Shown one piece after another: positions 12,338-42,368 of a DNA stretch of 64,000 nucleotides; positions within the stretch are counted from its first letter, which is position 1; every line of letters starts with the position of its first letter. The notes under the pieces are model-generated. The model was given only the letters and a program-made list of their open reading frames with translations, was not told the DNA's origin and did no database searches. This stretch comes from an uncultured Bradyrhizobium sp. (GTDB taxonomy: Bacteria; Pseudomonadota; Alphaproteobacteria; Rhizobiales; Xanthobacteraceae): contig NZ_CANSMR010000001.1 of NCBI RefSeq assembly GCF_947648125.1, positions 186,001 through 250,000 on the forward strand, written 5' to 3'. The translations under genes and the position numbers were made by a program.

Positions 12338-12365
12338 TTGACCAAAATCAAACATATGTTAGAAA
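12338..12365 (+). promoter_or_regulatory. Predicted promoter with TetR(AtuR-like) operator box 1
   Basis: A -35-like TTGACC (12338-12343) and -10-like TAGAAA (12360-12365) are 16 bp apart. The operator box TCAAACATATGTTAGA (12348-12363) fills the spacer and overlaps the -10. It matches the consensus TCTAAC-N4-GTTAGA in 11 of 12 arm positions. It would control the AtuA/carboxylase/thiolase operon from 12514. Confidence 0.6.
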
Positions 12366-12513
12366 ACTTCCAAGGCATCGGAGCTGCGTGTGTCGGCTTC
12401 GACCCATGCTCGGCGTCTGCAACGCCAGCAGTCGCCTCGAAATCTGGAACGCCCCGGGGGGCGATCTTGGGATCGGTCTGAGCCCAAATGGGTGGGGCAA
12501 TTGGGAGGTTGCG

Positions 12514-14310
12514 ATGACGGAGCGAACCGTGCGTATCGGATGCGCCTCGGGGTTCTGGGGCGACACGCCAGAGGCGATTGGACAGCTGGTGACGAAGGGC
12601 GACATCGACTATCTGGTCTTCGACTATCTTGCCGAGATCACGATGTCGCTGGTTGCGCGGGCGCGGGCGAAGTCGCCCGAGGCCGGCTATGCCCCCGACT
12701 TTGTCCAGGCGTTAGCGCCCTTCCTGCCCGAAATCAGGCGCAAGGGCATCAAGGTCGTCGCCAATGCGGGCGGCGTGAACCCGCGCGGTTGCCGCGAGGC
12801 GTTGGCCAGAGCTGCGGAGGCGGCCGGCGTGAGGATCAGCATCGGCGCGGTGCTCGGCGACGACCTCATGGACCAAGCCGAGAAGATGCGGGCAGCCGGC
12901 ATCACCGAGATGTTCTCGGGCGCGCCGTTTCCCGACAGGCTGATGAGCACGAACGCCTATCTGGGCGCGCGCCCGATCGCGGCCGCCCTCGCTGCGGGTG
13001 CGGATATTGTGGTGACCGGGCGCTGCGTCGACAGTGCGGTGGCGCTTGGGCCGCTGATGCATGAATTTGGCTGGGGCGATGACGACTGGGACCGGCTCTC
13101 CCAGGGTTCGCTTGCCGGCCACCTGATCGAATGTGGGCCGCAGGGGACCGGCGGCAATTTCACCGACTGGCGAGAGGTGCCAGGCTGGGACGACATGGGC
13201 ATGCCGATCGTCGAGGTGGCGCAAGACGGCCGCTTCATCATGACGAAGACGCCCGATACCGGGGGGCTGGTGGTGCCGGCCTCGGTGGGCGAGCAGATGC
13301 TCTATGAGATCGGCGATCCGCAGCGCTATATCCTGCCCGACGTGATCTGCGACTGGTCGCAGGTGACGCTGGATCAGGTGGGGCCGGACCGGGTGCTGGT
13401 GCGGGGCGCGCGTGGGCTGGGACGGACCGACAGCTACAAGGTGTCGGCCACCCATGCCGACGGCTGGCGCGCGATCACCACGCTGACCTTGGCCGCGATC
13501 GAGGCCCCGGCCAAGGCCGAACGTGTGGCAGAGGCGATCCTGACCCGCTGCCGCCGCATCTTCCGCGGGCGCAATCTGGCCGATTTCCGGCAGGTCAGCG
13601 TGGAGGTGCTGGGCGCCGAGGCGGCTTATGGGGCGAATGCCCGCGCCCGCACGCGCGAGGTGGTGTTGAAGATCGGCGTGACCCATGACGACCGCGACGC
13701 GCTAAACATTTTCGCCGGTGAGATCGCGCCGATGGCGGTCTCCTCCGCGCAAGGCTTAACCGGCTTCTTCGCGGGCCGGCCAAAGGTACAGCCGGTCGTG
13801 CGGCTTTTCTCCTTCCTGCATCCGAAGTCCGGCACGCCCGTCACGGTGGAGGTGGATGGAACGACGGTCCCGGTACAGATATCGACGGATGCGGCGACGC
13901 TTCCTGCGCTCGAGCCGTATCGCGGCGAAGCGGGCGATCCGGGCGCAGATGCGGTGACGGTGCCGCTCGTGACTTTGGCCTGGGCGCGCTCGGGCGACAA
14001 GGGCAACATCGCCAATATTGGCGTGATCGCGCGAAAACCCGGATACCTGCCCTACATCCGCGCCGCGCTCACCGAAGAGCGAGTGAGGAAGCATTTCGCG
14101 CATGTCTGCGAGGGACCGGTTGAGCGCTTCGAACTGCCCGGCATTCATGCGCTGAACTTCATGCTGCACGACTCCCTCGGCGGCGGCGGCATCGCCTCCG
14201 TCCGCATCGACCCCCAGGGCAAAGGCTATGGTCAGATCCTGCTGGATATCCATATCCCCGTGCCAGCCGAGCTTGCCTGGCGCGGCTTGTCGGCCCAACA
14301 GGCTGCATGA
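12514..14310 (+). CDS. AtuA-like (DUF1446) acyclic terpene utilisation family protein
   Basis: A 598-residue protein starting MTERTVRIGCASGFWGDTPE. It has the DUF1446 domain (about 5-450) with VVANAGGVNPRGCREAL, IVVTGRCVDSAVALGP and the glycine-rich ECGPQGTGGNFTDW. A smaller AtuA-like ferredoxin-fold C-terminal domain follows from about 490 (WARSGDKGNIANIGVIAR). The start ATG 12514 has GGGAGG six bases upstream; the longer frame to 12037 overlaps the IS630 relic and is not used. AtuA is required for growth on citronellol/geraniol in Pseudomonas but its reaction is unknown. The gene overlaps the next by 4 bp and heads an operon with a carboxylase, so a role tied to carboxylated isoprenoid-like acyl-CoA is likely. 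Confidence 0.85.
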   Translation: MTERTVRIGCASGFWGDTPEAIGQLVTKGDIDYLVFDYLAEITMSLVARARAKSPEAGYAPDFVQALAPFLPEIRRKGIKVVANAGGVNPRGCREALARAAEAAGVRISIGAVLGDDLMDQAEKMRAAGITEMFSGAPFPDRLMSTNAYLGARPIAAALAAGADIVVTGRCVDSAVALGPLMHEFGWGDDDWDRLSQGSLAGHLIECGPQGTGGNFTDWREVPGWDDMGMPIVEVAQDGRFIMTKTPDTGGLVVPASVGEQMLYEIGDPQRYILPDVICDWSQVTLDQVGPDRVLVRGARGLGRTDSYKVSATHADGWRAITTLTLAAIEAPAKAERVAEAILTRCRRIFRGRNLADFRQVSVEVLGAEAAYGANARARTREVVLKIGVTHDDRDALNIFAGEIAPMAVSSAQGLTGFFAGRPKVQPVVRLFSFLHPKSGTPVTVEVDGTTVPVQISTDAATLPALEPYRGEAGDPGADAVTVPLVTLAWARSGDKGNIANIGVIARKPGYLPYIRAALTEERVRKHFAHVCEGPVERFELPGIHALNFMLHDSLGGGGIASVRIDPQGKGYGQILLDIHIPVPAELAWRGLSAQQAA

Positions 14311-15794
14311 GGGGCGAGCCAGGCATGCAAATCCAAAAGCTTCTCGTCGCAAATCGCGGGGAAATCGCCGCACGCATCCTGCGCACGGCGCGGACGCAGG
14401 GCATTGCAACTTCCGTCCTGCGGCATGTGAATGAACAGCCCGGCCCCGCGCACCTGATCGCGGACGAGATCGTCGAGATCGACGGCGCGACGCCGGTCGC
14501 AGCCTATCTGGACATCGCACAGATCGTGGCCGCCGCCCAAAGGATCGGCGTCGATGCGGTACATCCCGGCTATGGCTTTCTGGCCGAAAATGCAGCCTTC
14601 GTCCGGGCGCTGGACACCGCCGGGATAGGCTTTGTCGGTCCGACCGGAGAGGTAATCGCTCTGATGGGCGACAAGGTGCGCGCCCGCGCTTTCGTCGAAC
14701 AGCGCGGCTTTCCCATAGCGCCCTCGGCCATCGAGGACGACGACCCGGCCACCTTCGTCGAACGCGCCCGCGCAGTGGGCTATCCGCTGCTCATCAAGCC
14801 TTCCGCCGGCGGTGGCGGCAAGGGAATGCGCGTCGTGCACGAGGATGCCGCACTCGAGGCGGAGATCGAGACCGCACGCCGCGAGGGCGAACGTTATTTT
14901 GGCGACGGACGTTTGTTCGTAGAGCGCTATATCGAGCGGCCGCGTCATATCGAAGTGCAGGTGATGGGCGACGGGCGGGGGCAGGTCGTGCATTACTGGG
15001 AACGCGAATGCTCGATTCAGCGTCGGTTCCAGAAGATTATCGAGGAAACGCCCTCGCCGGCACTAAGCTCTGAGCAGCGGGCCGAGATTTGCGAGACCGC
15101 CGTCGGGATCGCGCGCGCGGTGAACTATCGCGGCGCAGGTACGGTGGAGTTCATCTATGCGCCCGATGGCGCATTCTATTTTCTTGAGATGAATACCCGC
15201 CTTCAGGTCGAACATCCGGTGACGGAAATGGTGACTGGGATCGACCTCGTGGCCGAGCAGCTACACATCGCCGCCGGTAGGGGACTCAACCACGCCCAGG
15301 CGGAAATTCGCCAGACCGGACACGCCATCGAGTTGCGCATCTGTGCGGAGGATGCCGCCGCCGATTTCCGTCCGGCTATCGGCGAGGTGCTCCTGGTGGA
15401 AGAGCCGCAGGGCGCGGGCGTTCGGGTGGATAGCGGCATTCTGGAAGGCTGCAAGGTGACGACCGATTTCGACCCGATGCTTGCAAAGCTCATCGCCCAT
15501 GGCCCTGACCGTACCGCCGCCATCGCGCGCATGCGCGCCGCCGTTCGGGATTACGTGATCCTAGGCGTGACCACCAATACCGGCTATCTCGATGCGATTC
15601 TGGCGCATCCTCGCTTTCTCGCAGGCGACGTCTCGACAGGGTTTCTCGCCGAAGAGGCAGCAGTGCTGACTGCGCCAGGTGAGGACGTCACCGATATCCT
15701 TGTGGCCGCGACGGCTCTGTCGGACAGGCGACTTGTCCGAACGGTCGATGAGATACCCGAGATGTACCGGCTGATGGGGGCCTGGAGAAACTGA
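14307..15794 (+). CDS. Acyl-CoA carboxylase biotin carboxylase subunit
   Basis: The protein is 495 residues from ATG 14307 (ATGA overlap with the AtuA gene) or 489 from ATG 14325. It has the biotin carboxylase N-domain (KLLVANRGEIAARI) and an ATP-grasp glycine loop (KPSAGGGGKGM). The core motifs EVQVMGD, RECSIQRRFQKIIEETPSP and FLEMNTRLQVEHPVTE contain the metal- and bicarbonate-binding Glu/Asn/Arg. It carboxylates biotin on the separate carrier encoded next. As a free BC subunit it differs from the fused alpha subunit at 23234. Confidence 0.9.
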   Translation: MRGEPGMQIQKLLVANRGEIAARILRTARTQGIATSVLRHVNEQPGPAHLIADEIVEIDGATPVAAYLDIAQIVAAAQRIGVDAVHPGYGFLAENAAFVRALDTAGIGFVGPTGEVIALMGDKVRARAFVEQRGFPIAPSAIEDDDPATFVERARAVGYPLLIKPSAGGGGKGMRVVHEDAALEAEIETARREGERYFGDGRLFVERYIERPRHIEVQVMGDGRGQVVHYWERECSIQRRFQKIIEETPSPALSSEQRAEICETAVGIARAVNYRGAGTVEFIYAPDGAFYFLEMNTRLQVEHPVTEMVTGIDLVAEQLHIAAGRGLNHAQAEIRQTGHAIELRICAEDAAADFRPAIGEVLLVEEPQGAGVRVDSGILEGCKVTTDFDPMLAKLIAHGPDRTAAIARMRAAVRDYVILGVTTNTGYLDAILAHPRFLAGDVSTGFLAEEAAVLTAPGEDVTDILVAATALSDRRLVRTVDEIPEMYRLMGAWRN

Positions 15795-16297
15795 TGCGGC
15801 GGATACTCGAGATCGGCAACGGGGAAATTCCGATCTGGCTGGCCCACACCGGCAAGGGATATGTCGTTCATGTACGGGATCGGGCCGTGCCCTGCGCCCT
15901 AACTCCCTCTCAGGGCAGGGGCGCTTACGTGCTGGAGCTTGAGGGGCGAAGCATCCCGCTGCGTATGGCTGTAAGCGAGACGGCGACATTCATCCATCTG
16001 TACGGCCGCGCCTACGAGGTCGGGCGCATCGATCCGGCAGACTGGCTGGTTGAGGACGGCGCAGGTGCAGGGAACGACAGTATCGTGGCGCCGATGCCGG
16101 GGGTCGTTGTCTCGGTCGCGGTTGGAGCCGGCGACCGCGTCGAAAAGGGCCAGATGCTCCTGGTGATCGAGAGCATGAAGCTCGAGACCTCACTGAGCGC
16201 GCCCCGGGGTGGCGTGGTGGCCGAACTCCCATTTGCTCCTGGCCAAGGCTTCGGTCTCAAGAGCGTTCTGGTGCGGCTTGCACCCAAGGAGGAATAG
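15794..16297 (+). CDS. Biotin carboxyl carrier protein of acyl-CoA carboxylase
   Basis: A 167-residue stand-alone biotinyl domain protein. The C-terminal half has VAPMPGVVVSVAVGAGDRVEKG and the biotinylation motif ESMKLET with Lys129, a variant of the usual EAMKM. The N-terminal 80 residues resemble the linker/BT-like region found before BCCP in acyl-CoA carboxylases. The start overlaps the stop of the biotin carboxylase gene by one base. It carries CO2 as carboxybiotin from that subunit to the carboxyltransferase encoded immediately downstream. Confidence 0.85.
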   Translation: MRRILEIGNGEIPIWLAHTGKGYVVHVRDRAVPCALTPSQGRGAYVLELEGRSIPLRMAVSETATFIHLYGRAYEVGRIDPADWLVEDGAGAGNDSIVAPMPGVVVSVAVGAGDRVEKGQMLLVIESMKLETSLSAPRGGVVAELPFAPGQGFGLKSVLVRLAPKEE

Positions 16298-17905
16298 ATG
16301 CGCCGGATCCAGAGCCGGATCGATATCAACGCCGTTGACTACAGGGAAAACTACGCCGCCATGACCGGGCGGCTGCAAGAGTTTCATGCGCGCCAGAACG
16401 CCGCCCGTTACGAACGCCCGCAGCGCGATCTCGATCGCCTGGCGCGCCAGAACAAGCTGACGGTTCGCGAGCGCCTCGACTTGCTTCTCGACCCCGGAAC
16501 GCCGTTTCTGGAGTTTTCCACGCTCGCCGCCTGCCGCGCATATGACGGCACGGTGCCTGGCGCGGGTGTCGTGACGGGCATCGGCATCCTGCAGGGACGT
16601 GAGGTGGCGATCCACGCCAATGACGCAAGCGTCAAGGGCGGTGCTTGGTATCCGCTGACCGTGAAGAAGATCGTCCGGCTTCTCGACGTCGCGGTCGAGA
16701 ACTGCCTGCCAGTTGTGCATATCTGTGACAGCGCGGGCGGTTTTTTGCCTCTGCAGCATGGCGTCTTTCCCGACCGCCATCTCGGCGGCCGTGTGTTCCG
16801 CAACCAGACGATACTGAGCCGGATGAACGTGCCTCAGCTGGCGATCGTCGGTGGGCATTGCACCGCGGGCGGTGCCTATGTCCCGGCACTGAGCGACTAT
16901 AACATCATCATTGAAGGCACCGGCGCGATCTTTCTCGGCGGTCCGCCTCTCGTGAAGGCAGCGACCGGAGAGGACGTTGGCGTCCAGGAACTGGGTGGCG
17001 CGATCATGCACACCAGCGTGTCGGGCACCGGCGATTACCGGGCCGCCAGCGAGGCGCATGCCTTCGCGCTAGCTCGCGAAATCGTGAGTCAGTGGAAGCG
17101 GCCCCAGAAAGCGGTGATCGAGACCGCGCCGATCGAAGAGCCCTTCTACGACCCGCGGGAGCTCTATGGCATCATTCCGAAGGACCGCAAAATCCAGTTC
17201 GACATGCGCGAAGTGATCGCGCGCATCGTTGACGGATCGCGATTCCACGAATACCAGCCCCATTACGGCACGACCCTGGTCTGCGGCTTCGCCCATGTCT
17301 GGGGCTTCAAGGTGGGGATTTTGGCTAATAATGGCGTGTTGTTCAACGACAGCTCGCTCAAGGCTGCGCATTTCATCCAGCTCTGCAATCAAAACCACAC
17401 GCCGCTGGTCTTCTTCCAGAACATCACGGGCTTCATGGTCGGCCGCGAATACGAGGAACGCGGAATCACCAAGGACGGAGCAAAGATGCTGATGGCGCAA
17501 GGTGGCTCGGTGGTGCCGAAGTTCACGGTGATCGCCAATGCCTCGTACGGTGCCGGCAATTACGGCATGTGCGGTCGGGCCTGGGACGCGCGCACGCTGT
17601 TCATGTGGCCGCAGGCCGAGATCGGCGTGATGGGCGCCGAACAGGCGGCCAATACCTTGGCCGACGTGAAGATTCGTCAGCTGCAGCGGGAGGGAAAAGA
17701 ACTGACCGACGAGGAGATCGCCGAGATCCGAGAACCGGTGCTGGAGCGCTACAAGCGCGACGTGGAGGCCTATACCTCGACCTCTGAGATTTGGGACGAC
17801 GGCATTCTCGATCCGGTCGATACGCGCAATGCGCTGGGACTGTCGATCTCTGCGGCCCTCAACGCACCCATCGGCGATCCTCATTACGGTGTCTTCAGGA
17901 TGTGA
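16298..17905 (+). CDS. Acyl-CoA carboxylase carboxyltransferase (beta) subunit, MCC/GCC type
   Basis: The 535-residue protein has both crotonase-fold carboxyltransferase halves. The N-half includes VPGAGVVTGIGIL and GGHCTAGGAYVPALSD, whose backbone forms the acyl-CoA oxyanion hole. The C-half includes GILANNGVLFNDSSLKAAHFI, FFQNITGFMVGREYE and NASYGAGNYGMCGRAW. These are hallmarks of 3-methylcrotonyl-/geranyl-CoA carboxylase beta chains. The gene starts directly after the BCCP stop with AAGGAGGAA upstream. With the BC and BCCP it forms a three-polypeptide carboxylase for a branched, unsaturated acyl-CoA; the exact substrate cannot be decided by eye. Confidence 0.9.
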   Translation: MRRIQSRIDINAVDYRENYAAMTGRLQEFHARQNAARYERPQRDLDRLARQNKLTVRERLDLLLDPGTPFLEFSTLAACRAYDGTVPGAGVVTGIGILQGREVAIHANDASVKGGAWYPLTVKKIVRLLDVAVENCLPVVHICDSAGGFLPLQHGVFPDRHLGGRVFRNQTILSRMNVPQLAIVGGHCTAGGAYVPALSDYNIIIEGTGAIFLGGPPLVKAATGEDVGVQELGGAIMHTSVSGTGDYRAASEAHAFALAREIVSQWKRPQKAVIETAPIEEPFYDPRELYGIIPKDRKIQFDMREVIARIVDGSRFHEYQPHYGTTLVCGFAHVWGFKVGILANNGVLFNDSSLKAAHFIQLCNQNHTPLVFFQNITGFMVGREYEERGITKDGAKMLMAQGGSVVPKFTVIANASYGAGNYGMCGRAWDARTLFMWPQAEIGVMGAEQAANTLADVKIRQLQREGKELTDEEIAEIREPVLERYKRDVEAYTSTSEIWDDGILDPVDTRNALGLSISAALNAPIGDPHYGVFRM

Positions 17906-18022: not shown

Positions 18023-19207
18023 ATGAGTGACAAAGCCTGTATCGTAGGTGTAGGGGTGGTGCCGTTTCAGAAACCTGGCAAGTCTGAGAGCTACGACGTG
18101 ATGGCCGCGAAGGCCACGCGCGCGGCGCTGGAAAACGCTAGCCTCGACTACGACAAGGTGCAGCAGGCCTATGCAGGCTACGTCTACGGCGACAGCACCT
18201 GCGGCCAGCGCGCGCTATACCACGTGGGGATGACGGGCATCCCGGTAGTCAACGTCAACAACAACTGCTCCACGGGCTCTACGGCGTTGTTTCTTGCGCG
18301 GCAAGCGGTGGAGAGCGGCGCGGTGGATTGCGCTCTTGCACTCGGGTTCGAACAGATGCCGCCCGGCGCCATCGGCGCCATGTTCCACGACCGGGTCAGC
18401 CCCTTCCAGGCTTTCGACGAGGAAACCGACGAACTTGTCGGTCATCCCGAGATCCCGTTGGCGCTGCGCTACTTCGGCGGGGCAGGCAAGGCGTATATGG
18501 ACGAATTCGGCACCACGCTGGAAACCTTCGCCAAGATCCGCTCCAAGGCCAGCCGGCACGCGGCGAGGAATCCCGTCGCGCTGTTCCGCCAGGAGGTCAC
18601 GCCGGAGGAGGTGCTGGCTGCGCAGGTCGTGTGGCCCGGCGTGATGACCAAACTCATGGCCTGCCCGCCCACCTGCGGCGCTGCGGCCGCGATCGTCTGT
18701 TCGAAGACATTCGCTGACAAGCACGGGCTCGACAGCTCGGTGCGCATCGCCGCGCAGGCGATGACGACCGACGGCCCGGAAACGTTCAAGGCACACGACA
18801 TGCGCGAGGTCGTGGGTGCGTCGATGGCCAAGCGGGCGGCCGACCAGGTTTACGAGGCGGCGGGCATCGGGCCCGAAGACCTGGACGTGGTGGAACTGCA
18901 CGACTGCTTTGCCCACAACGAGCTCATCACCTACGAGGCCCTCGGCCTCTGCGGGCACGGCGAGGCCGGGAAGTTCGTCGATGATGGCGACAATACCTAT
19001 GGCGGAAAGTACGTCACCAATCCCTCGGGGGGCCTTCTCTCGAAGGGGCACCCGCTGGGCGCCACGGGTCTCGCGCAGTGCACCGAACTGGTCCAGCAGT
19101 TGCGCGGCCAAGCCGACGCGCGCCAGGTCGAGGGCGCCCGGCTTGCGCTTCAGCACAATCTGGGACTGGGCGGCGCCTGTGTGGTGACGCTGTACGAGAA
19201 GGCCTGA
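18023..19207 (+). CDS. SCP-x/lipid-transfer-type thiolase
   Basis: A 394-residue thiolase-fold protein of the SCP2-thiolase group. The nucleophile Cys82 lies in VNNNCSTGSTALFLA. The base His343 is in SKGHPLGATG, Cys386 in LGLGGACVV, and ELHDCFAHNEL is the family signature. It has therefore kept the residues for thiolytic cleavage of 3-ketoacyl-CoA, unlike the paralogue at 39988. The start ATG has GGGAG upstream. It follows the first carboxylase by 117 bp and probably completes that operon's beta-oxidation round. Confidence 0.85.
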   Translation: MSDKACIVGVGVVPFQKPGKSESYDVMAAKATRAALENASLDYDKVQQAYAGYVYGDSTCGQRALYHVGMTGIPVVNVNNNCSTGSTALFLARQAVESGAVDCALALGFEQMPPGAIGAMFHDRVSPFQAFDEETDELVGHPEIPLALRYFGGAGKAYMDEFGTTLETFAKIRSKASRHAARNPVALFRQEVTPEEVLAAQVVWPGVMTKLMACPPTCGAAAAIVCSKTFADKHGLDSSVRIAAQAMTTDGPETFKAHDMREVVGASMAKRAADQVYEAAGIGPEDLDVVELHDCFAHNELITYEALGLCGHGEAGKFVDDGDNTYGGKYVTNPSGGLLSKGHPLGATGLAQCTELVQQLRGQADARQVEGARLALQHNLGLGGACVVTLYEKA

Positions 19208-19231
19208 GGCAGGCCAACGGGAGGAAACGAC

Positions 19232-20065
19232 ATGACCGGGAAACTCGAAGGCCGCGTGGCCCTGGTTTCGGGCTCGGGCCGCGGAATCGGGCGCGAGATT
19301 GCGCTGAAGCTCGCATCGGAAGGCGCAAGGGTCGTGGTGAACGACCTTGACGCCGATCCGGCCAACGACACCGCCGAGGCGATCCGCGCCGCCGGCGGCG
19401 AGGTTGCAGTCTGCGCCGGCAGCGTGACGTAGGACGGCCTTGCCGAACGCTTCGTCGAGACGGGCGTCGACAGTTTCGGCGGGCTCGACATCATTGTGAA
19501 CAACGCCGGTTACACCTGGGACAGCGTGGTCCAGAAGATGACCGACGAGCAGTGGCGCGCGATCATCGACGTGCATCTGATCGCGCCTTCAGGATTCCTG
19601 CGCGCCGCCCAGCCGGAGATCGCCGCCAAGGCCAAGGAGGAGGCGGCCGCCGGCAATGAGGTGTTTCGGAAGGTCGTGAACATCTCGTCGATCGCCGCCA
19701 CCGGCGGCAATGCCGGCCGGCCAGATCAACTATTCCGCCGCCAAGGCCGGTATCCTGGGCGTCACCCGGACGATGGCGAAGGAATGGGGGCGCTACAAGG
19801 TGAACGTGAATGCGGTGGCCTTTGGACCGATCCGCACCTGCCTGACCGAGGGCAGCGTCGACGGCGACAGCAAGATTTTGGTAGAGAACAAGGAGATCAA
19901 GGTCGGCGTGAATCCCGCCCTGCTAGCCAGATGGAGCGGATGATCCCGCTGGGCCGGGTTGGCACGCCACAGGAGGCGGCCGGCGCCGTTTATCTGTTCT
20001 GTTCGCCGGAGTCGGACTTCATCTCGGGCCAGTACGTGATCTGCGGCGGCGGCTTCACCATCTGA
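19232..20065 (+). pseudogene. Short-chain dehydrogenase/reductase (FabG/HSD17B4-like), three lesions
   Basis: It opens MTGKLEGRVALVSGSGRGIG (NAD(P) TGxxxGxG motif) and continues with VVNDLDAD and IVNNAGYTWD. The catalytic segment is VVNISSIAATGG ... INYSAAKAG, and the end is GRVGTPQEAAGAVYLF and DFISGQYVICGGG. A TAG (19430-19432) interrupts the frame at about residue 67. A 4-bp duplication (GGCC GGCC, near 19718) and a 1-bp loss (near 19928) shift and then restore the frame. The three lesions argue for a pseudogene, or for a badly read stretch. Intact, it would be a 3-hydroxyacyl-CoA dehydrogenase next to the thiolase. Confidence 0.75.
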
Positions 20066-20137: not shown

Positions 20138-20174
20138 TTGACACGGCTGGAGAGCAAAGCTAACAAACGTTAGT
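20138..20174 (+). promoter_or_regulatory. tetR promoter with operator box 2 over the -10
   Basis: A perfect -35 TTGACA (20138-20143) is followed after 17 bp by TAACAA (20161-20166). The operator GCTAACAAACGTTAGT (20159-20174, arms CTAAC/GTTAG) covers the -10. The ATG at 20176 lies where transcription should begin, so the transcript may be leaderless. Confidence 0.7.
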
Positions 20175-20175
20175 T

Positions 20176-20844
20176 ATGCTCGTAGAAGAGCTGCGTGCCC
20201 CCTTGACCGCATCCGTCTTGAAAGCTGCCGAAGAGAGTTCCCGCGCGCCGGTTGGCCGCGACGGTATCCTGAATGTCGCCGCGCGGCTTTTTCGCGAGCA
20301 GGGCTATGGCGCGGTCTCCCTGCGAAGGATCGCCGAGGCCGCCGGTATCAAGGCCGGCAGCATCTACTATCACTTCGGATCGAAGGACGAGATCGTGGTA
20401 GCCATCCTCGACGAAGGCATATGGGCGGTTCACGACAGGATGCGCCGCGCGATATCCGACGTATCGGGGGGAGATGCGGCAACCGTCCTGCGCGCCGCGA
20501 TCCGGGCGCATCTGCGCGCTTTGCTGGACGTCAGCGACTATTCCTCCGCCAACGTCCGCATCTTCGGCCAAGTGCCTCAGTCGGTCCGCGATGCCAACCT
20601 TCCGGCGCGACGGGCCTATGAGGCCGAGTGGGACGGCTTGTTGAGCCGCCTCAAGGCCGACGGTGCCCTGCGCGAGGTGGTCGATGTCCGGCGGCTCCGT
20701 CTGATGTTGATCGGCGCGCTAAACGCCACGCTGGAATGGTTCGATCCGGAGCGGGGCAGCGCCGAGGCGCTCGCCTCCGCCTATGCGGACGTGTTTCTGA
20801 ACGGTGTTCTTACGAAGCGTAGCGATCCGGCATGGCCCAGCTGA
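20176..20844 (+). CDS. TetR-family regulator, probable AtuR-like repressor of the cluster
   Basis: A 222-residue protein. The TetR helix-turn-helix lies at about 28-74: RDGILNVAARLFREQGY, then VSLRRIAEAAGIKAGSIYYHFGSKDEI. A helical C-terminal ligand domain of the TetR_C type follows. The gene overlaps the start of the carboxyltransferase gene by 13 bp, so it is cotranscribed with the pathway. Pseudomonas AtuR is a TetR repressor of the atu cluster binding inverted repeats. Here a palindrome CTAAC-N4-GTTAG sits in its own promoter and at four other promoters in the window, so autoregulation and control of the whole cluster, with an acyl-CoA as inducer, are inferred. No ribosome-binding site precedes the ATG. 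Confidence 0.85.
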   Translation: MLVEELRAPLTASVLKAAEESSRAPVGRDGILNVAARLFREQGYGAVSLRRIAEAAGIKAGSIYYHFGSKDEIVVAILDEGIWAVHDRMRRAISDVSGGDAATVLRAAIRAHLRALLDVSDYSSANVRIFGQVPQSVRDANLPARRAYEAEWDGLLSRLKADGALREVVDVRRLRLMLIGALNATLEWFDPERGSAEALASAYADVFLNGVLTKRSDPAWPS

Positions 20845-32278: not shown

Positions 32279-32285
32279 GCAGCAG

Positions 32286-33104
32286 ATGACCCCGGCTCCC
32301 GACAAAGAAGCGGCCAAGATCCTGTCGACGAACAGTATTGAGGTCCTCTACGACAACGTCATGTTAGCGATCAAAGGAGTTTCCATCCAAGTTCCGAAAG
32401 GTGGGATGGTGGCGTTGCTCGGGTCCAATGGAGCCGGAAAGAGCACGACGTTGAAGGCAATCAGCGGCCTTCTCAAGGCCGAGCGTGGACGTGTTAGCCG
32501 GGGCGAGATTAGTTTCGAAGGCACGCTGATCACCGATCTTCCCGCGCAACAGCGTGTGGAGATGGGGATTTGCCATGTGATCGAAGGCCGTCGTGTTTTC
32601 GAGCACTTGACGCCCGACGAAAATCTCGACGCGGCTGCGCCGATGTCGATGACACGGGCGACCCTGAATGCGGAGAAGCAGAAGATCTATGAATATTTCC
32701 CGCGCCTGGCCGAACGGAAGAACTCCCAAGCGGGATATCTCTCAGGCGGCGAGCAGCAAATGCTGGCGATCGGCCGCGCGTTGATGACCCAGCCGCGGTT
32801 GCTGATGCTCGATGAACCTAGTCTGGGCCTGGCACCTTTCTTGGTAGCCGAAATCTTCAACATCATCAAGAAGATCAACAAGGTTCACGGGCTATCGGTT
32901 TTGCTGGTCGAGCAGAACGCATTGGCCGCCCTAGAGATCGTGTCCGACGGTTATCTTATCGAGAACGGTCGCGTCGTCATGCATGACACCGCGCAAGCCC
33001 TGAAATCGAATTCCGACATTCAGGAATTCTATCTTGGCGGAGGTTCAGCCACAAACTTCCATGACATCAAACACTACAGTCGGCGCAAACGTTGGCTGAG
33101 TTGA
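32286..33104 (+). CDS. livF: Branched-chain-type ABC transporter ATP-binding protein (LivF-like)
   Basis: A 272-residue ATPase from ATG 32286; the frame extends upstream to 32259 inside livM. Walker A is GSNGAGKST, the signature YLSGGEQQML, Walker B LLMLDEPSLGLAP and the switch region LLVEQNALAAL. The signature and length are those of LivF. A basic tail (HYSRRKRWLS) extends past the usual end. It is the second nucleotide-binding subunit of the importer. Confidence 0.85.
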   Translation: MTPAPDKEAAKILSTNSIEVLYDNVMLAIKGVSIQVPKGGMVALLGSNGAGKSTTLKAISGLLKAERGRVSRGEISFEGTLITDLPAQQRVEMGICHVIEGRRVFEHLTPDENLDAAAPMSMTRATLNAEKQKIYEYFPRLAERKNSQAGYLSGGEQQMLAIGRALMTQPRLLMLDEPSLGLAPFLVAEIFNIIKKINKVHGLSVLLVEQNALAALEIVSDGYLIENGRVVMHDTAQALKSNSDIQEFYLGGGSATNFHDIKHYSRRKRWLS

Positions 33105-33138
33105 CGCGGCTAAATTCAAGACAGACTGGGAGAATGAA

Positions 33139-34386: not shown

Positions 34387-34470
34387 CGTGGCAAGCGCAT
34401 CAGCCGCGCCAACAACAACTGATCGACGGGCTAATAGAGCAGGCAAACAATAGGAAACTGGAGGTTCAAC

Positions 34471-35715
34471 GTGACTATTCATCGCACGATAAAGGCCCTG
34501 ACTGTCGCAACCCTTCTCGGGATGGCAGGTCAGACCGCCTCGGCCCAGGAAGCTATCCGTATCGGTGCATGCCTCGATCTCAGCAAAGCATACACCTTCG
34601 TCTCGCCGCAGGTGGCTCAGGCAGCTCAGGATCTCGCCAAGTATGTGAACCAGAGCGGAGGCATTGGCGGTCATCCGGTCGAAATCATCGTCCGGGACCA
34701 CGGTAACGAGCCGCAGCGCGGTGTGGAATGTTACGAACAGCTCAAGCGTGAGGGCGTGTTCATCTTTAACTTCCTCTCGACTCCCGTGACCAACGCAGTG
34801 CTGCCGCGTGCGATGAAGGATGGCAACATCGTGATGCAATCCTTCGTCGGCCGTGGGGATGCCGTGGACGGGGAAGTTTTCAAGTGGATATTCCCCGTGG
34901 GCCCCACCTATTGGCAGCAAGCAGCCAACGATGTCGCCTTTATCAAAGGCCGGTTGGGTGGCAAGCTGACCGGCGCCAAGATCGGTTTCATTTATCTCGA
35001 CTATCCCTTCGGTCAAGAGCCGATCGAAGTTCTAAAAACCCTTTCCAAGGCCGAGGGTTTTGATCTGAAGCTCTATCCAGTGCCTCTCCCAGGCAGTGAC
35101 CAAGCGAGCGCTTGGACGCAAATGCGCCGCGACAAGCCCGACTACGTGATCAGCTGGATTCTTGCCGGCGGACACGTCGTGGCTTTCAAGGAGATGAAAC
35201 GTAACGGCTTCCCGATCGACAAATACCTGTCGGTGAACTGGCTGAATGAGGTCGACATCAGGAATATCGGTGACGAAGCGGCCAAGGGAATCCTTCGAGG
35301 CACCAACGTTGCGGGCGGCCAGGAAGTACCACTCGTCAAGACCTTGCTCGAGAACCTGTATTCCAAAGGCCAGGGTAGCGGACCGGAAACGTCGGTGCGC
35401 GATGTCTACTACAACACAGGCTTGGCTATCTACGCCCCAGCCTTCGAGGCTGCTCGAATTGCAATAAAGAAATACGGCTGGCCGCTGAACGCTGAAAAGA
35501 TGAAAGATGGATATGAATCCATTAAAAACTTTGACGGCAGCGGCGTGATGTCGCCGATCACGGTGACCGCAAAGGATCACGGTGGCGGTGGCAAGACGCG
35601 AGTTGAGCAGTGGGACGGAAAAAGCTGGGTTCCGCTCAGCGACTGGAGCGCGGATTACACCGATGTGGTCTGGAAATTGATCAAGGAGAATTCGTCAAAA
35701 TTCAAGGTTGAGTGA
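34471..35715 (+). CDS. Periplasmic substrate-binding protein of the ABC importer (copy 2)
   Basis: A 414-residue paralogue of the preceding gene. It starts at GTG 34471 with CTGGAGG upstream and has a signal peptide ending near MAGQTASAQ. Long shared stretches such as RDHGNEPQRGVECYEQLKRE and KEMKRNG show a tandem duplication, with clearly more than half of positions identical by eye. Divergence lies partly in cleft-lining segments, so the two may have different ligands. A strong hairpin follows at 35724. Confidence 0.85.
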   Translation: MTIHRTIKALTVATLLGMAGQTASAQEAIRIGACLDLSKAYTFVSPQVAQAAQDLAKYVNQSGGIGGHPVEIIVRDHGNEPQRGVECYEQLKREGVFIFNFLSTPVTNAVLPRAMKDGNIVMQSFVGRGDAVDGEVFKWIFPVGPTYWQQAANDVAFIKGRLGGKLTGAKIGFIYLDYPFGQEPIEVLKTLSKAEGFDLKLYPVPLPGSDQASAWTQMRRDKPDYVISWILAGGHVVAFKEMKRNGFPIDKYLSVNWLNEVDIRNIGDEAAKGILRGTNVAGGQEVPLVKTLLENLYSKGQGSGPETSVRDVYYNTGLAIYAPAFEAARIAIKKYGWPLNAEKMKDGYESIKNFDGSGVMSPITVTAKDHGGGGKTRVEQWDGKSWVPLSDWSADYTDVVWKLIKENSSKFKVE

Positions 35716-35802: not shown

Positions 35803-36585
35803 ATGGAACCCAACCCGATCCAAGTGTCCGTAGACGGAGGTATCGCCACCGTCTGCATCAACCGGCCCCAGCGCAAGAACGCGCTGTCGATCGCTGCGGC
35901 GAACGGGTTGACTGATTCATGGGAGCGGATCGAGGCCGACGATACGGTTAGAGTTGCGATCCTGACTTCGGCAGACTGCGGCGTGTTCAGCGCAGGTCTC
36001 GATCTGAAGGAAGCAGCCGAGATAGCGCGCCAGGAGGGCGTCGACATTCTCAGCAAGATGCGCGACCCGTTTCACGAAACGATGCGCGCCTGCCGCAAGC
36101 CGATCATTGCTGCAATGACTGGCTCTCTGATGGCCGGCGGGATGATGCTGACGCTGAACTGCGATTTGCGGGTCGGGCTCAAGGGAACCAAGGTCGGGAT
36201 CACCGAAGTCAAGATCGGCCGTGGCTCGCCTTGGGCTGCGCCGGCGCTATCGATGCTTCCTCAGCCGATCCTGATGGAGATTGTCCTGACGGGCGATCTG
36301 ATGCCGATCGAGCGCCTGCACGACTACGGCTTCACCAACTACCTCGAAGACACGCCTGACGCGGTGCGCGCCCGTGCCCGCGATCTCGCAACCCGCATCG
36401 CCAGAGGCGCGCCGCTGTCGGTGATCGCGGCCAAGGCCAGTGTGCGGGCGACGATGGATCTGGGGTGTGCCGGTGGGCTGGAAGAGGGCAAGCGTCTTCA
36501 CGAGATCGTCTATGCCAGCCAGGACGCCGTCGAGGGGCCCCGCGCCTTTGCCGAAAGACGCGCGCCGGTCTGGCAGGGCAGATAG
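35803..36585 (+). CDS. Enoyl-CoA hydratase/isomerase family protein
   Basis: A 260-residue crotonase-fold protein from ATG 35803. ICINRPQRKNALS and FSAGLDLKEAAEI give the first oxyanion loop; GSLMAGGMMLTLNCDLRVG gives the second. At the two usual Glu positions it has Gly-Met context and GITEVKIGRG with one Glu kept, so isomerase or hydratase activity is possible. It lies downstream of the binding proteins after a hairpin and ahead of a second, broken crotonase. Confidence 0.8.
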   Translation: MEPNPIQVSVDGGIATVCINRPQRKNALSIAAANGLTDSWERIEADDTVRVAILTSADCGVFSAGLDLKEAAEIARQEGVDILSKMRDPFHETMRACRKPIIAAMTGSLMAGGMMLTLNCDLRVGLKGTKVGITEVKIGRGSPWAAPALSMLPQPILMEIVLTGDLMPIERLHDYGFTNYLEDTPDAVRARARDLATRIARGAPLSVIAAKASVRATMDLGCAGGLEEGKRLHEIVYASQDAVEGPRAFAERRAPVWQGR

Positions 36586-36595
36586 AGAACCTGCG

Positions 36596-37364
36596 ATGAC
36601 CGACCTGATGCGCATGGTCCGCGAAGGGCCCATCGGCATTTTGCGATTTGTCTGCCCCGCAATCCCCACAGTCTCGATCGTCGATGCGCTGATCCGTAAG
36701 CTCGATGAGGCGGAGCTGGATAGCACGATACGTGCGGTGGTCATGACAGGCGACGAGCATTTCTCAAGCGGCGGAGATCTGGTCGGCTTCCGCACCGAGA
36801 CCGCCAAGGGCGGCCGCGCCACGCACGAACTGGTGGATCGCGTTCACAGAGGCGGGCGCGGGGCCAACAGGTTCCGCAAGCCACTCGTCGCGGCCGTCGA
36901 CGGTGTTGCTTTTCAACGCCAGCATGAGTCTTGCCTTGTCTGCCGATGTCGTAGTCGCGGCCGAAGATGCGCGAGCCTGCGAGGTCTTTGCGCGGGTCGG
37001 CGGATGCCCCGACACTGGATCGAACTGGCTGCTGCAACAGCGCGCCGGGGCCGGGGTGGCGCGCCTGCTGGCGATGACAGGACGGGAGATTTCCGGCAAG
37101 ACCGCGCGCGAGCTGGGCGTCGTCGAGGAACACGTGCCGGCCGAGAGGACCGAGGAAACGGCCATCGCCATTGCCCGCGAGATGGCCGCGCATTTGATGT
37201 ATGGCAAAGAGATGGTCAAGCGCGTGATGCGCAGCACTGCCGTGTGTTCCTATACGAAGCGCTCGAAATCGAGCGTGACGCGCAGACTGCTCTGGCCCCA
37301 CGATTTCTGCGAAGCGATGGAGACCTTCGAGCAAAAGCGTCCACCGCGTCTCCGCGATTGCTGA
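36596..37364 (+). pseudogene. Enoyl-CoA hydratase family gene with several frameshifts
   Basis: It begins MTDLMRMVREGPIGILRFVC at ATG 36596 and reaches VMTGDEHFSSGGDLVGF and FRKPLVAAVDGVAF. One extra T in the TTTT near 36910 moves the homology to the frame NASMSLALSADVVVAAEDARA. Near 37230 it returns ([17 protein letters not shown]) and near 37300 it shifts again ([14 protein letters not shown]). At least three indels point to decay, or to low sequence quality here. Intact it would be a paralogue of the preceding crotonase. Confidence 0.7.
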
Positions 37365-37407
37365 CAGCATCCCGGAACATGTCAACTTGCCCAAGGAGAA
37401 ACGCACG

Positions 37408-38157
37408 ATGAAGGTGCTCGTGGCCGTCAAACGCGTGGTCGATTACAACGTCAAGGTCCGCGTCAAGGGCGATGGATCGGGCGTTGAACTCGCCAACGTC
37501 AAGATGTCGATGAACCCGTTCGACGAAATCGCGGTCGAGGAAGCGCTGCGCCTGAAGGAAGGCGGCAAGGCCACCGAGGTCGTTGTGGTGTCCATTGGTC
37601 CGGCGCAGGCGTCGGAAACGATCCGCACCGGTCTCGCCATGGGCGCCGACCGCGGCATCCTGGTGAAGGCCGACGGCAATGTCGAGCCGCTGGCGGTTGC
37701 CAAGATCCTGAAGAAGGTCGCCGACGAAGAGCAGCCGGGCCTGATCATTCTCGGCAAGCAGGCGATCGACGACGACTCGAACCAGACCGGCCAGATGCTG
37801 GCCGCGCTGCTCGGCTGGTCGCAGGCGACGTTCGCCTCCAAGCTCGAGGTCGAAGGGGCCGACTTCAAGGTCACGCGCGAGGTCGATGGCGGCCTGCAGA
37901 CCGTGAAGCTGAAGGGACCGGCAATCGTCACCACCGATCTCCGCCTCAACGAGCCGCGCTATGCCTCGCTGCCGAACATCATGAAGGCGAAGAAGAAGCC
38001 GATCGCGGACAAGACCGTCGCCGATTACGGCGTCGACGTCGCCGCGCGTCTTGAAGTTCTCAAGACGACGGAGCCACCGGGCCGCAAGGCGGGCGTCAAG
38101 GTCAAGGACGTCGCCGAGCTGGTGTCGAAACTCAAGAACGAAGCCGGGGTGCTCTGA
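37408..38157 (+). CDS. etfB: Electron transfer flavoprotein beta subunit
   Basis: A 249-residue ETF-beta from ATG 37408 with AAGGAG upstream. It starts [20 protein letters not shown]. The AMP-binding region has [20 protein letters not shown] and the recognition loop [18 protein letters not shown] contacts dehydrogenases. With EtfA it accepts electrons from the acyl-CoA dehydrogenases encoded nearby and passes them to ETF-ubiquinone oxidoreductase. The sequence looks like the housekeeping alphaproteobacterial form. The start and stop overlap with etfA indicates coupling. Confidence 0.95.
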
Positions 38158-39086
38158 TGACGACGCTTCTGATTGCCGAACATGAAGCTGGCGCCCTCAA
38201 GGACGCCACCAACAAGGCGCTGACCGCGGCTACAGCCCTCGGCGCCGACGTCCACGTGCTGGTGGCCGGCCAGAACGCCAAGGCTGCGGCCGACGCCGCC
38301 GCCAAACTGAACGGCGTGAAGAAGGTTCTGCTCGCCGAAGGCGAGCCTTACGCGCACGACCTCGCCGAGCCGCTGGCCGCGCTGATCGTCTCGCTCGCGC
38401 CCGCCTATGATGCTTTCGTCGCGCCCGCGACCTCGCGCTTCAAGAACGTGATGCCGCGCGTCGCGGCACTCCTCGACGTGATGCAGGTCTCGGAGATCAT
38501 CAAGGTCGTCGCGCCCGACACGTTCGAGCGGCCGATCTACGCCGGCAACGCCATCCAGACGGTGAAGTCCAAGGACGCCAAGAAGGTCATCACCGTGCGC
38601 ACCTCCACCTTTGCCGCAACCGGCGATGGCGGCAGTGCACCGGTGGACGCAGCTGGCCCGGCCGCCGATCCCGGCCTGTCCAGCTTTGTCGGCGAAGAGG
38701 TCGCCAAGAGCGATCGGCCTGAGCTCACCTCGGCCAAGATCATCGTCTCCGGCGGCCGCGCCATGCAGAGCCGGGAAAACTTTGCCAAGTATATCGAGCC
38801 GCTCGCCGACAAGCTGGGCGCCGGCGTCGGCGCCTCGCGCGCCGCGGTCGATGCCGGCTATGCGCCGAACGACTGGCAGGTCGGTCAGACCGGCAAGGTG
38901 GTGGCGCCCGAGCTTTATGTCGCGGTCGGCATTTCCGGCGCGATCCAGCATCTGGCCGGCATGAAGGACTCCAAGGTGATCGTCGCAATCAACAAGGATG
39001 AGGACGCGCCGATCTTCCAGGTCGCCGATTACGGCTTGGTGGCAGACCTCTTCCAAGCCATGCCCGAGCTGATCGAAAAGCTCTGA
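38157..39086 (+). CDS. etfA: Electron transfer flavoprotein alpha subunit
   Basis: A 309-residue ETF-alpha with the C-terminal FAD domain signature [21 protein letters not shown], then [45 protein letters not shown]. It overlaps etfB as ATGA. It holds the FAD that shuttles electrons from acyl-CoA dehydrogenases. Etf genes inside the cluster suggest that the pathway runs at high flux and needs its own ETF supply. Confidence 0.95.
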
Positions 39087-39520: not shown

Positions 39521-39548
39521 TTGCCAGAAATCTAACATCTGTTAGAAA
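39521..39548 (+). promoter_or_regulatory. Predicted promoter with operator box 4
   Basis: TTGCCA (39521-39526), a 16-bp spacer and TAGAAA (39543-39548). The operator TCTAACATCTGTTAGA (39531-39546) has perfect 6-bp arms. It would control the DUF35/thiolase/MaoC operon. Confidence 0.65.
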
Positions 39549-39605: not shown

Positions 39606-39983
39606 TTGAGAGTTCAGGAAGGGCCAGACACGGTCTTCCGATGCGAGCTAGCAGCGGGCAAAGTCGTTCTTCCCAAGTGCAACGCGTGCGGCCGTTTTCA
39701 TTTTTTTCCGCGGGTGGTCTGTCCGCATTGTTACGGGACCTCGTTCGCATGGCGCGAGGCATCGAGCAGAGGCGAGATTCATACCACAACAATCATCCGG
39801 CGCCCGCCCGATCAGGGCGGCGATTACAACGTGTGTATCGTCGAACTGGAGGAAGGGGTCCGGATGATGAGCCGGGTTGAGGGGGTCGCGCCTTCCGACG
39901 TGAGGATCGGCATGGCGGTGACTGCCTACGCCGGAAAAATTGACGGCACACCCGCCGTGCTGTGCAGGCCTGAAGAGGGCTGA
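39606..39983 (+). CDS. DUF35 OB-fold/zinc-ribbon acyl-CoA-binding protein
   Basis: A 125-residue protein from TTG 39606 with GAGGGAG upstream. A rubredoxin-like zinc ribbon (CNACGRFHFFPRVVCPHC) is followed by an OB-fold (TTTIIRRPP, YNVCIVELEEGVRMMSRVEG). DUF35 proteins pair with SCP2-type thiolases; in steroid degradation the DUF35 domain of ChsH2 is needed for Ltp2 aldolase activity. The thiolase-like gene starts 5 bp downstream. A stable complex with that protein is the likely role. Confidence 0.85.
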   Translation: MRVQEGPDTVFRCELAAGKVVLPKCNACGRFHFFPRVVCPHCYGTSFAWREASSRGEIHTTTIIRRPPDQGGDYNVCIVELEEGVRMMSRVEGVAPSDVRIGMAVTAYAGKIDGTPAVLCRPEEG

Positions 39984-39987
39984 AGAG

Positions 39988-41139
39988 ATGGAAAACAAGC
40001 TGCGCGGTAAATCTGCAATCGTCGGCACCGGACATGCCGGCTTTGGCGAGGCGCCGGGCCTGACGGCCTGCGACATCATGGCGGAAGCAGGTCTGGCGGC
40101 ACTGGGAGATGCGGGGTTGAGACTGCCCGATGTCGACGGGCTCTTCTGCACGATGATGGAAGACAGCATGCCGGCGCTGATGGCGGCGGAATATCTTGGC
40201 ATCCGCCCGCGTTTTGTCGAGGGCACGATGACCGGCGGCTCTTCCTTCGTGAACTACATCACCGCAGCCACGATGGCGCTCGAGGCGGGGCTGTGCGATG
40301 TGGCGCTGATCGTCTACGGCTCGAACCAGCGCAGTTCGTCGGGCAAGCTGGTCACGGCCTCGCGGCCGCCGCCCTACGAGCAGATGTATCGCCCGCGCTA
40401 TCCGATCTCCGCCTATGCTCTTGCGGCGGCGCGGCACATGCATGAATTTGGCACCACGCGCGAACAGCTGGCCGATGTGGCAGTCGCCGCGCGGGCTTGG
40501 GCCAAGCACAATCCCGAAGCCTTCGCCCGCGGCGATCTGACACGCGAGGATGTGCTCGCTTCGCGCATGGTCAGCGATCCGCTGACCGTGCGGGATTGCT
40601 GCCTCGTCACCGATGGGGGCGGTGCGGTGGTGATGGTGCGGTCGGAGCGGGCGAGGGATTTCCCCAAACCGCCGGTTTACGTCCTTGCGAGCGCCGCCGA
40701 GAGCACGCATCGGCAGATTTCGCAGATGCCGGATTTCACCGTCACGGCAGCCAGGGAGTCGGGCGCGCGCGCTTTCGCCGCAGCCAGGGTGGCTCCGTCC
40801 GACATCGACGTGGTCGAACTTTACGACGCCTTCACCATCAACACGATCCTCTTTCTCGAGGACTTGGGCTTTTGCAAGAAAGGCGAAGGCGGCGCGTTTG
40901 TCGCTGACGGGCGGATTGCACCGGGCGGTGCGCTGCCGGTCAACACCAATGGCGGGGGGCTCTCCTGCGTGCATCCGGGTATGTACGGTATCTTCACCGT
41001 AATCGAGGCGACCCGGCAGATCCGAGGCGATGCGCCGGGACTTCAGATCGGCAATGTCGATCTGGCGCTCGCTCACGGCAATGGCGGCACGCTGTCGAGC
41101 CAGGTGACAGCGATTCTGGGTTCAGGGAACACCTTGTGA
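39988..41139 (+). CDS. SCP2-thiolase-like protein lacking the nucleophilic Cys (Ltp2-like aldolase candidate)
   Basis: A 383-residue thiolase-fold protein from ATG 39988. Where thiolases have NNNCSTG it reads GTMTGGSSFVNYI, with Ser85/Ser86 and no Cys. The ELYDAFTINTILFLEDLGF and NTNGGGLSCVHPGMYG segments keep a Tyr and a His like Ltp2-type aldolases. Ltp2 splits a branched 3-hydroxyacyl-CoA by retro-aldol reaction, with a DUF35 partner, releasing propionyl-CoA in the steroid case. The gene directly follows a DUF35 gene. A similar C-C cleavage is inferred here. Confidence 0.8.
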   Translation: MENKLRGKSAIVGTGHAGFGEAPGLTACDIMAEAGLAALGDAGLRLPDVDGLFCTMMEDSMPALMAAEYLGIRPRFVEGTMTGGSSFVNYITAATMALEAGLCDVALIVYGSNQRSSSGKLVTASRPPPYEQMYRPRYPISAYALAAARHMHEFGTTREQLADVAVAARAWAKHNPEAFARGDLTREDVLASRMVSDPLTVRDCCLVTDGGGAVVMVRSERARDFPKPPVYVLASAAESTHRQISQMPDFTVTAARESGARAFAAARVAPSDIDVVELYDAFTINTILFLEDLGFCKKGEGGAFVADGRIAPGGALPVNTNGGGLSCVHPGMYGIFTVIEATRQIRGDAPGLQIGNVDLALAHGNGGTLSSQVTAILGSGNTL

Positions 41140-41160
41140 AACGACCGGAGAGGCAAGGCG

Positions 41161-42018
41161 ATGCCACTCGATTATAAGGCTCTGTCGAACTGGGAATTCG
41201 AAGACATCACCCAGACCCTCACCGAACGCGACACCATGCTCTACGCGCTCGGTCTGGGCTTTGGTGAGGACCCGACCGATGAAAAAGAACTGGCCTATGT
41301 CTATGAGGAAGGGCTATTGGCCGTGCCGTCAATGGCCGTGACGCTCGGCTATCCTGGTTTCTGGCTGCGTGATCCGCGGACCGGGGTCGATTGGAAGAAG
41401 GTCCTGCATGGCGAGCAGTGGCTGGACGTCTACAAATCGCTGCCGGTCAAAGGTGAGCTGATCGGCCGCACCAGGATCGATCAGATCTCCGACAAGGGCG
41501 AAGGCCGCGGCGCGGTGATCTATCTGAGCCGTGACATCATCGACGCCGCCAACGGCGAGACGCTGGCCAAAGTCTCGATGTCGACCTTCTGCCGCGGCGA
41601 TGGCGGATTCGGCGGCGAAAACAAGCCGGGACCGACGCCTGCGGCTATTCCCGAACGCGAGCCCGACCATGTCTGCGATCTTGCGACGCTGCCGCGCCAA
41701 GCGTTGGTCTATCGCCTGTCGGGCGATTACAACCCGCTGCACGCTGATCCCAAGGTCGCTCGTGCGGCAGGATTCGAGCGCCCGATCCTGCATGGCCTGG
41801 CCACTTACGGGCTGGCGGCCCGCGCGATCCTGAAGACGCTGCTGGACTACAATGCCAGCCGCCTGACCGGGCTCGATGTGCGCTTCTCCGCCCCGGTCTA
41901 TCCGGGCGAGACGGTGCGGTTCAATATCTGGCGCGAAGGCGACGGCGCGCGGTTCAGAGCTTCGGTCGCCGAGCGTCAGGTCGTCGTGCTGGACAACGGC
42001 ACAGCCCGCTTCGCCTGA
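41161..42018 (+). CDS. MaoC-type enoyl-CoA hydratase 2 (MFE-2 hydratase-like, double hotdog)
   Basis: A 285-residue protein. The N-terminal hotdog-like half has YALGLGFGEDP and AVTLGYPGFWL. The C-terminal half carries the hydratase 2 motif YRLSGDYNPLHADPKVARAAGFERPILHG, with the Asp/His pair of (R)-specific hydratases. Architecture and length match eukaryotic MFE-2 hydratase and steroid-side-chain hydratases. It would hydrate the branched enoyl-CoA before aldolase or thiolase cleavage. Downstream of its stop the sequence is degraded before the next promoter. Confidence 0.85.
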   Translation: MPLDYKALSNWEFEDITQTLTERDTMLYALGLGFGEDPTDEKELAYVYEEGLLAVPSMAVTLGYPGFWLRDPRTGVDWKKVLHGEQWLDVYKSLPVKGELIGRTRIDQISDKGEGRGAVIYLSRDIIDAANGETLAKVSMSTFCRGDGGFGGENKPGPTPAAIPEREPDHVCDLATLPRQALVYRLSGDYNPLHADPKVARAAGFERPILHGLATYGLAARAILKTLLDYNASRLTGLDVRFSAPVYPGETVRFNIWREGDGARFRASVAERQVVVLDNGTARFA

Positions 42019-42029
42019 GGTTAGCTACC

Positions 42030-42325
42030 ATGGCTCAGCCGCTCACCAACATCCTCGCGCTGGATTTCAGCGCCGCTACCGGCCGAGGCCGATTGCTGCT
42101 GCACGGTGGTCAAGTCCTCGACCGAGGCGGCATCCGACGACCATTTCGCCAAGCGGGGCGTATACGGCTGGCAGGTGCAAATTGGGACAGGTGCGTGCCC
42201 GCCCTGCCGCTACCGATCGTGCGGGCCTTTCGCGTGCCGCCTCCCGGGACGAGGCTGCGTCCGGTCTGGGCTGCCACAACCGCGATTTCGGACCGGCCGC
42301 CCCATGAGAGATGCCGCCAAGAACA
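42030..42325 (+). other. Degraded stretch, possible CoA-transferase (CaiB-type) start
   Basis: An ATG at 42030, right after the MaoC gene, opens MAQPLTNILALDFSAATGRG, which faintly resembles the first strand of class III CoA-transferases. No further homology follows in that frame. A second frame has short plausible runs only. I treat it as non-functional spacer or relic. Confidence 0.2.
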
Positions 42326-42368
42326 TTGACGCTGCCAAGGCGGCTCACTATTCTAACAATTGTTAGAA
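42326..42368 (+). promoter_or_regulatory. Predicted promoter with operator box 5
   Basis: TTGACG (42326-42331), a 17-bp spacer and TATTCT (42349-42354). The operator TTCTAACAATTGTTAGAA (42351-42368) is a perfect 18-bp palindrome, the best of the five boxes, overlapping the -10. It drives the transglutaminase-like/acyl-CoA dehydrogenase operon. Confidence 0.7.

Follow-up and report, generated by a model that had tools for sequence, protein, structure and literature searches.

How far does the regulon marked by the palindrome TCTAAC-N4-GTTAGA extend, and which repressor reads this box? The question arises from a 64,000-nucleotide stretch of an uncultured Bradyrhizobium sp. (the window; C1:186001-250000 on contig 1 of assembly GCF_947648125.1), for which a sequence-only reading had proposed that five boxes over about 35 kb place several acyl-CoA operons under a single, AtuR-like TetR repressor encoded among them. 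With somewhat more confidence than doubt, we favor a different assignment, in which the box is the predicted operator of a TetR_N + TetR_C_24 subfamily, a tandem (double) TetR encoded outside the window is most likely the regulon-wide repressor, and the TetR of the window acts mainly on its own operon.

Operator boxes and their promoters

The window contains five boxes on the forward strand, each where it had been located before: at the AtuA promoter TTGACC-N16-TAGAAA (12348-12363, TCAAACATATGTTAGA, 1 mismatch), at the tetR/carboxylase operon promoter TTGACA-N17-TAACAA (20159-20174, GCTAACAAACGTTAGT, 2 mismatches) and, with 0 mismatches each, at the SDR/ABC operon promoter TTGCAT-N17-TAGATT (26634-26649, TCTAACATACGTTAGA), at the promoter TTGCCA-N16-TAGAAA (39531-39546, TCTAACATCTGTTAGA) and at 42352-42367 (TCTAACAATTGTTAGA). 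The 18-bp form TTCTAACAATTGTTAGAA (42351-42368) is the last box with its flanks, and the second confirms that the tetR gene itself carries a box. The boxes were well above the shuffled chance level: at ≤2 mismatches there were 5 (0.45 expected) and at ≤1 mismatch 4 (0.05 expected), counts reached by none of 100 shuffles, whereas the excess at ≤3 mismatches was weaker (13 versus 6.6 expected; largest shuffle, 12).

The extent first assigned to the regulon proved too small. A scan of the 8.57-Mb genome, with the reversed pattern and an N5 spacer as controls, returned 11 sites, 4 of them exact and 7 with one mismatch. Of these, 8 lay inside C1:35157-228367, and nine sites, counting the 2-mismatch box at tetR, span 193 kb of contig 1. 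Outside the window, these are found at C1:35157, between a dienoyl-CoA reductase gene and the acyl-CoA dehydrogenase gene heading the operon of a third carboxylase; at C1:48472, where the next called gene is an SDR at 49149 and the target is uncertain; at C1:104870, an exact box at the promoter of the double TetR; and at C1:111071, at an acyl-CoA dehydrogenase operon. The spacing was strict: over 310 kb of contig 1, the N4 spacer gave 8 sites at ≤1 mismatch, all of them intergenic though 85% of this stretch is called coding, and spacers of 0-3 and 5-10 gave none; across the whole genome, an N5 spacer gave 1 site at this threshold. The genome-wide scan suggested earlier as a check for random occurrence had a split outcome: exact and one-mismatch sites cluster on contig 1, but at ≤2 mismatches the reversed pattern gave more hits (359) than the box itself (41 in total), so that 2-mismatch hits outside the cluster carry no meaning. 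C1:129459 (2 mismatches, between called genes) was taken as a chance match, as was 62612 of the N. thuwali plasmid (2 mismatches, within a gene). C62:9354 (1 mismatch) is probably the site of another TetR, as the neighboring TetR has TetR_N and no TetR_C_24 match; two other one-mismatch sites lie between called genes (C11:156044) and within a called gene (C23:28967).

The -35 and -10 elements proposed earlier were present, 16-17 bp apart, at all five window boxes; the box at 42352 meets its -10 element, TATTCT, at the left edge only. These elements come from a best-of scan, without shuffled control, over 30 promoter orientations from this genome, N. thuwali and Roseibium. In 17 of the 30 orientations, the -10 element (TAGANN or close to it) coincided with the right arm at a constant offset, and 11 of these 17 had a -35 element starting with TTG. 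As in classical TetR operators, the inverted repeat lies over promoters and at the regulator's own gene; the predicted promoter geometry fits steric repression but is no proof of it.

Conservation of the box was assessed in 80 loci with a relative of the window TetR (52-83% identity), the best 80 of 168 confirmed, totaling 1.42 Mb. A box at ≤2 mismatches was found between 140 bp before and 10 bp after the inferred tetR start in 74 of the 80 loci; it lay slightly further down in L111, L112 and L114, and none was detected in this region in L058, L087 and L096. At ≤1 mismatch, the N4 spacer gave 142 sites in these loci and spacers N2, N3, N5 and N6 gave zero. All 12 boxes of the N. thuwali plasmid (2 in a duplicated stretch) and all 8 of a 139.7-kb part of Roseibium (≤1 mismatch) lay between listed genes, the gene tables of both plasmids being incomplete. 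Box types were promoter specific, with TCAAAC...GTTAGA at AtuA not only in N. thuwali and Roseibium but also at many related loci, and mostly CCTAAC...GTTAGT at tetR, where 71 of the 74 loci counted have a box with both outer letters altered relative to the consensus. Two boxes 82 bp apart precede tetR in L036 (7650 and 7732) and many related loci, and their arm changes (ACAAAC..., ...GGTAGA) are conserved.

A double TetR and its association with the boxes

When the proteins of this genome were searched with the window TetR (20176-20844; TetR_N + TetR_C_24, start codon uncertain), the next matches were an adjacent pair at C1:104980-106215 within one 443-codon frame. This frame encodes a double TetR (C1:104932-106239, 435 amino acids) in which TetR_N and TetR_C_24 each match twice; it thus combines two TetR units in one polypeptide, and its halves fold as one pseudo-dimer. 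Both halves have nearly identical recognition helices, and that of the window TetR is almost the same. The box at the double TetR's own promoter is the palindrome with 0-1 mismatches, and a counterpart of the gene adjoins a box in N. thuwali, Roseibium and five further plasmid records. A tblastn search with the double TetR matched 43 plasmid records, at least one of which (Polaromonas) was a single TetR matched twice; the organisms named were mostly roseobacters, and many of the 40 plasmid matches listed came from diatom or dinoflagellate sources. In several relatives, a third TetR gene lies directly downstream of the double TetR (L103, ~5748-6254; L099, ~4103-4702).

Of 385 genomes drawn across the class, 9 had a relative of the window TetR (E≤1e-45) and 18 an exact box, both occurring together in 5 of the 9 versus a box in 13 of the 376 genomes without this TetR; in G041, G194 and G287, 27-44 bp separated the box from the downstream matched part of tetR. 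A full-length double TetR was found in three of the 385 (G000, G265 and G342; scoring covered at most four candidates in each genome). From the 80 loci, 50 genomes were tested, and 44 of them have a double TetR, which in one is truncated by a contig end. With ≤2 mismatches allowed, 2 to 6 boxes occur at each locus of these 44, and the 6 genomes without it (L110-L115) have one box each in the fetched locus, at tetR. Two plasmid records (W01 and W02) encode a double TetR without a single TetR closely related to that of the window, and carry 10 boxes each (≤1 mismatch; reversed controls, 0 and 2). Record W03 has the double TetR, no window TetR and 4 boxes (control, 1), and W04 to W07 have both repressor genes with 8 to 12 boxes (controls, 0). 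In G265 (100% complete), no relative of the window TetR exceeded 40% identity; it has 6 exact boxes (control, 1). Boxes precede its genes for AtuA, the double TetR, dienoyl-CoA reductase, transglutaminase and an SDR, and a perfect box precedes a CT2 carboxyltransferase homologue without tetR. On balance, these comparisons suggest that the double TetR is the probable reader of the boxes. The earlier proposal of one operator and one regulon under TetR-family control is supported, but its assignment to a single repressor is doubtful, as the double TetR tracks multi-promoter boxes better than the TetR of the window.

Weighing of the rival readings and comparison with known regulators

Several observations weigh against giving the double TetR this role. 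In genomes that have both repressors, this one included, co-occurrence does not tell them apart; for W01 and W02 the search covered the plasmid records only, and the W03 strain has another plasmid with both repressors. G265 encodes two more distant single TetRs (40% and 39% identity), and its 9 boxes at ≤1 mismatch are fewer than those of the reversed control (21), so that the exact count and the positions alone speak there. In G342, two double TetRs are accompanied by only 2 boxes at ≤1 mismatch (control, 14). The promoter scan found no good -35 element for the box before the double TetR of this genome, the sister relation of d1 and d2 had a support of 88/69 only, and the 80 loci contain near-copies, so their counts are not independent, although 56 distinct box sequences remain.

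It is possible, though in our view rather unlikely, that both repressors bind every box comparably and that homodimer and covalent dimer answer different intermediates as an AND-type gate. Such sharing would suit the near identity of the recognition helices, the boxes at both regulators' own promoters and the presence of a double TetR in all 44 tested genomes whose TetR is ≥62% identical, but the outer letters of the tetR box hint at a separate affinity class, and two plasmid records and one genome keep the boxes without the window TetR. The persistence of boxes in its absence also makes it very improbable that the window TetR alone governs all boxes, as originally modeled; this TetR neighbors the genes and has its own-promoter box in 74 of 80 relatives, plus 3 slightly further down, but the 6 tested genomes lacking the double TetR have just one local box in the fetched locus. 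We give still less credit to another DNA-binding protein, such as the third TetR beside the double TetR in several loci or the further TetR_C_24 protein of the window (51680-52387), since the latter has a different recognition segment (TPGAVYFHV) and its gene has no box nearby at ≤2 mismatches in the window scan. That the boxes are promoter or repeat elements instead of operators is barely credible: they overlap -10 elements, and one promoter copy was duplicated together with its box, but the strict N4 dyad symmetry is conserved across families and at unrelated promoters.

Under the favored assignment to the double TetR, we infer the following division of labor. The repressor would cover the spacer and -10 element of each promoter and so block RNA polymerase. 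Its release would require an inducer, and the analogy with related TetRs such as AibR (isovaleryl-CoA) makes one of the pathway's acyl-CoAs the probable candidate. The double TetR, as a covalent pseudo-dimer, would read the palindrome with its two nearly identical recognition helices, and its window paralogue would control mainly its own carboxylase operon through the variant box with its altered outer letters, with a possible share in other boxes. Given the box at each promoter, the two repressors are probably autoregulated. More tentatively, one palindrome may have come to be read by a TetR homodimer and by its covalently fused paralogue through one duplication-fusion within an alphaproteobacterial subfamily, independent of Mce3R; the fusion may free the two ligand pockets and half-sites to diverge and so permit the conserved asymmetric boxes (TCAAAC...GTTAGA at AtuA), and may have driven the expansion of a single autoregulated operon into a catabolic regulon of ~10 promoters on conjugative plasmids.

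KstR, the regulator of the actinobacterial cholesterol regulon, recognizes the motif AAC-N2-GTT. This spacing was ruled out here, as TCTAAC-N2-GTTAGA gave 0 hits in the 80 loci. The KstR and KstR2 regulons also contain ChsH2-type, paired dehydrogenase and thiolase genes, and KstR2 was among the PDB hits of both TetRs.

An excerpt of PMC11667970 presents Mce3R of Mycobacterium tuberculosis as the only solved double TetR-family regulator (TFR; PDB 9b7y) and cites 204 double TFRs predicted in Actinomycetes. It describes 25-bp asymmetric Mce3R sites read by non-identical helix-turn-helix motifs, a further point against our assignment, whereas a 16-bp palindrome would here be read by two nearly identical recognition helices. 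The two proteins share 16% identity in structural alignment, and the double TetR is assigned to the double TFRs by architecture, not as an Mce3R orthologue. Compared with known double TFRs, the predicted palindromic box, the proteobacterial setting and the operator held in common with a single paralogue are new. Among the matches listed in our literature searches, Mce3R was the only natural double TetR, and no paper dealt with this gene set.

The AtuR-like character proposed earlier was not borne out for the operator or the gene order. As far as an excerpt of PMC9973270 describes it, the atu system of Pseudomonas likewise has a TetR repressor, an inverted-repeat operator and atuA- and carboxylase-type genes, and an AtuA protein is present here. 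However, the AtuR site (AGCAAGCGCTTGG/CCAAGCGCTTGCT) differs in sequence from our boxes and was ruled out as their identity, and atuR diverges from atuA, whereas tetR here lies on the same strand ~6 kb downstream of AtuA and heads the CT2 operon. Several promoters are involved here, and the tested carboxyltransferases score nearer MCC.

Gene content, substrate and meaning

All genes of the window regulon lie on the forward strand. The AtuA family protein (12514-14310; PF07287, 2.8e-144, the single match in the genome; start set from homologues) is followed by biotin carboxylase, BCCP and carboxyltransferase CT1 of an MCC/GCC-lineage acyl-CoA carboxylase (14325-17905; the best PDB hits of CT1 include MCC beta) and a lipid-transfer protein/thiolase (18023-19207). 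Downstream of tetR are carboxyltransferase CT2, enoyl-CoA hydratase, biotin carboxylase-BCCP and acyl-CoA dehydrogenase (20832-26517), and then an SDR, a branched-chain-type ABC importer (2 ATPases, 2 permeases and 2 binding proteins) and an acyl-CoA ligase (26700-35715). Enoyl-CoA hydratase(s) and ETF beta/alpha (35803-39086) probably belong to this last operon, their order matching N. thuwali and Roseibium. A ChsH2-type (DUF35) OB-fold protein, thiolase and MaoC hydratase (39606-42018) precede a transglutaminase-like protein, a MaoC protein, two acyl-CoA dehydrogenase-like proteins, an enoyl-CoA hydratase and a weak PaaK-like ligase (42394-47881). An SDR before tetR (19207-20065) and the second enoyl-CoA hydratase (36586-37408) are partial matches and may be broken genes. 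The TetR_C_24 gene at 51680-52387 (reverse strand) heads a B12-binding/methylmalonyl-CoA mutase/MeaB gene row.

The AtuA promoter, with its box and the gene start, is duplicated (12317-12544 and C1:111048-111277; 88% over 230 bp), and a DDE_3 transposase fragment ends beside the window copy. AtuA and the acyl-CoA dehydrogenase operon diverge from one box in N. thuwali, while here the copies lie 87 kb apart, one per partner. Conjugation-type genes (T2SSE ATPase, TrbE-like, TrbL and TrbI) precede the cluster at C1:21663-30774 (L017), and the plasmids of N. thuwali and Roseibium that bear the cluster also have tra/trb genes.

Taken together, the regulon comprises three acyl-CoA carboxylases, AtuA, HMG-CoA lyase and citryl-CoA lyase homologues, paired acyl-CoA dehydrogenases, a ChsH2-type protein, thiolases, MaoC hydratases, ABC importers, ligases and ETF. 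CT1 and CT2, the two carboxyltransferases tested, scored 571-611 bits with MCC beta versus 426-436 bits with GCC beta; according to an excerpt of PMC4673880, the Gly162/Phe191 positions bear on carboxylase substrate, with Gly162 typical of geranyl-CoA carboxylase. An imported, CoA-activated methyl-branched isoprenoid-type acid is our best inference for the substrate from this gene content. The methyl-branched isoprenoid or steroid-side-chain-like acid suggested before would agree with these branched acyl-CoA and isoprenoid-type genes.

The double TetR would thus provide many relatives with a defined palindromic box, against one solved double TFR that reads asymmetric DNA. Because a single homologue occurs on the same promoters and has natural losses, covalent and non-covalent repressor dimers may be compared directly. 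The boxes also delimit a largely plasmid-borne, isoprenoid-type catabolic regulon that is frequent in marine and algae-associated bacteria.

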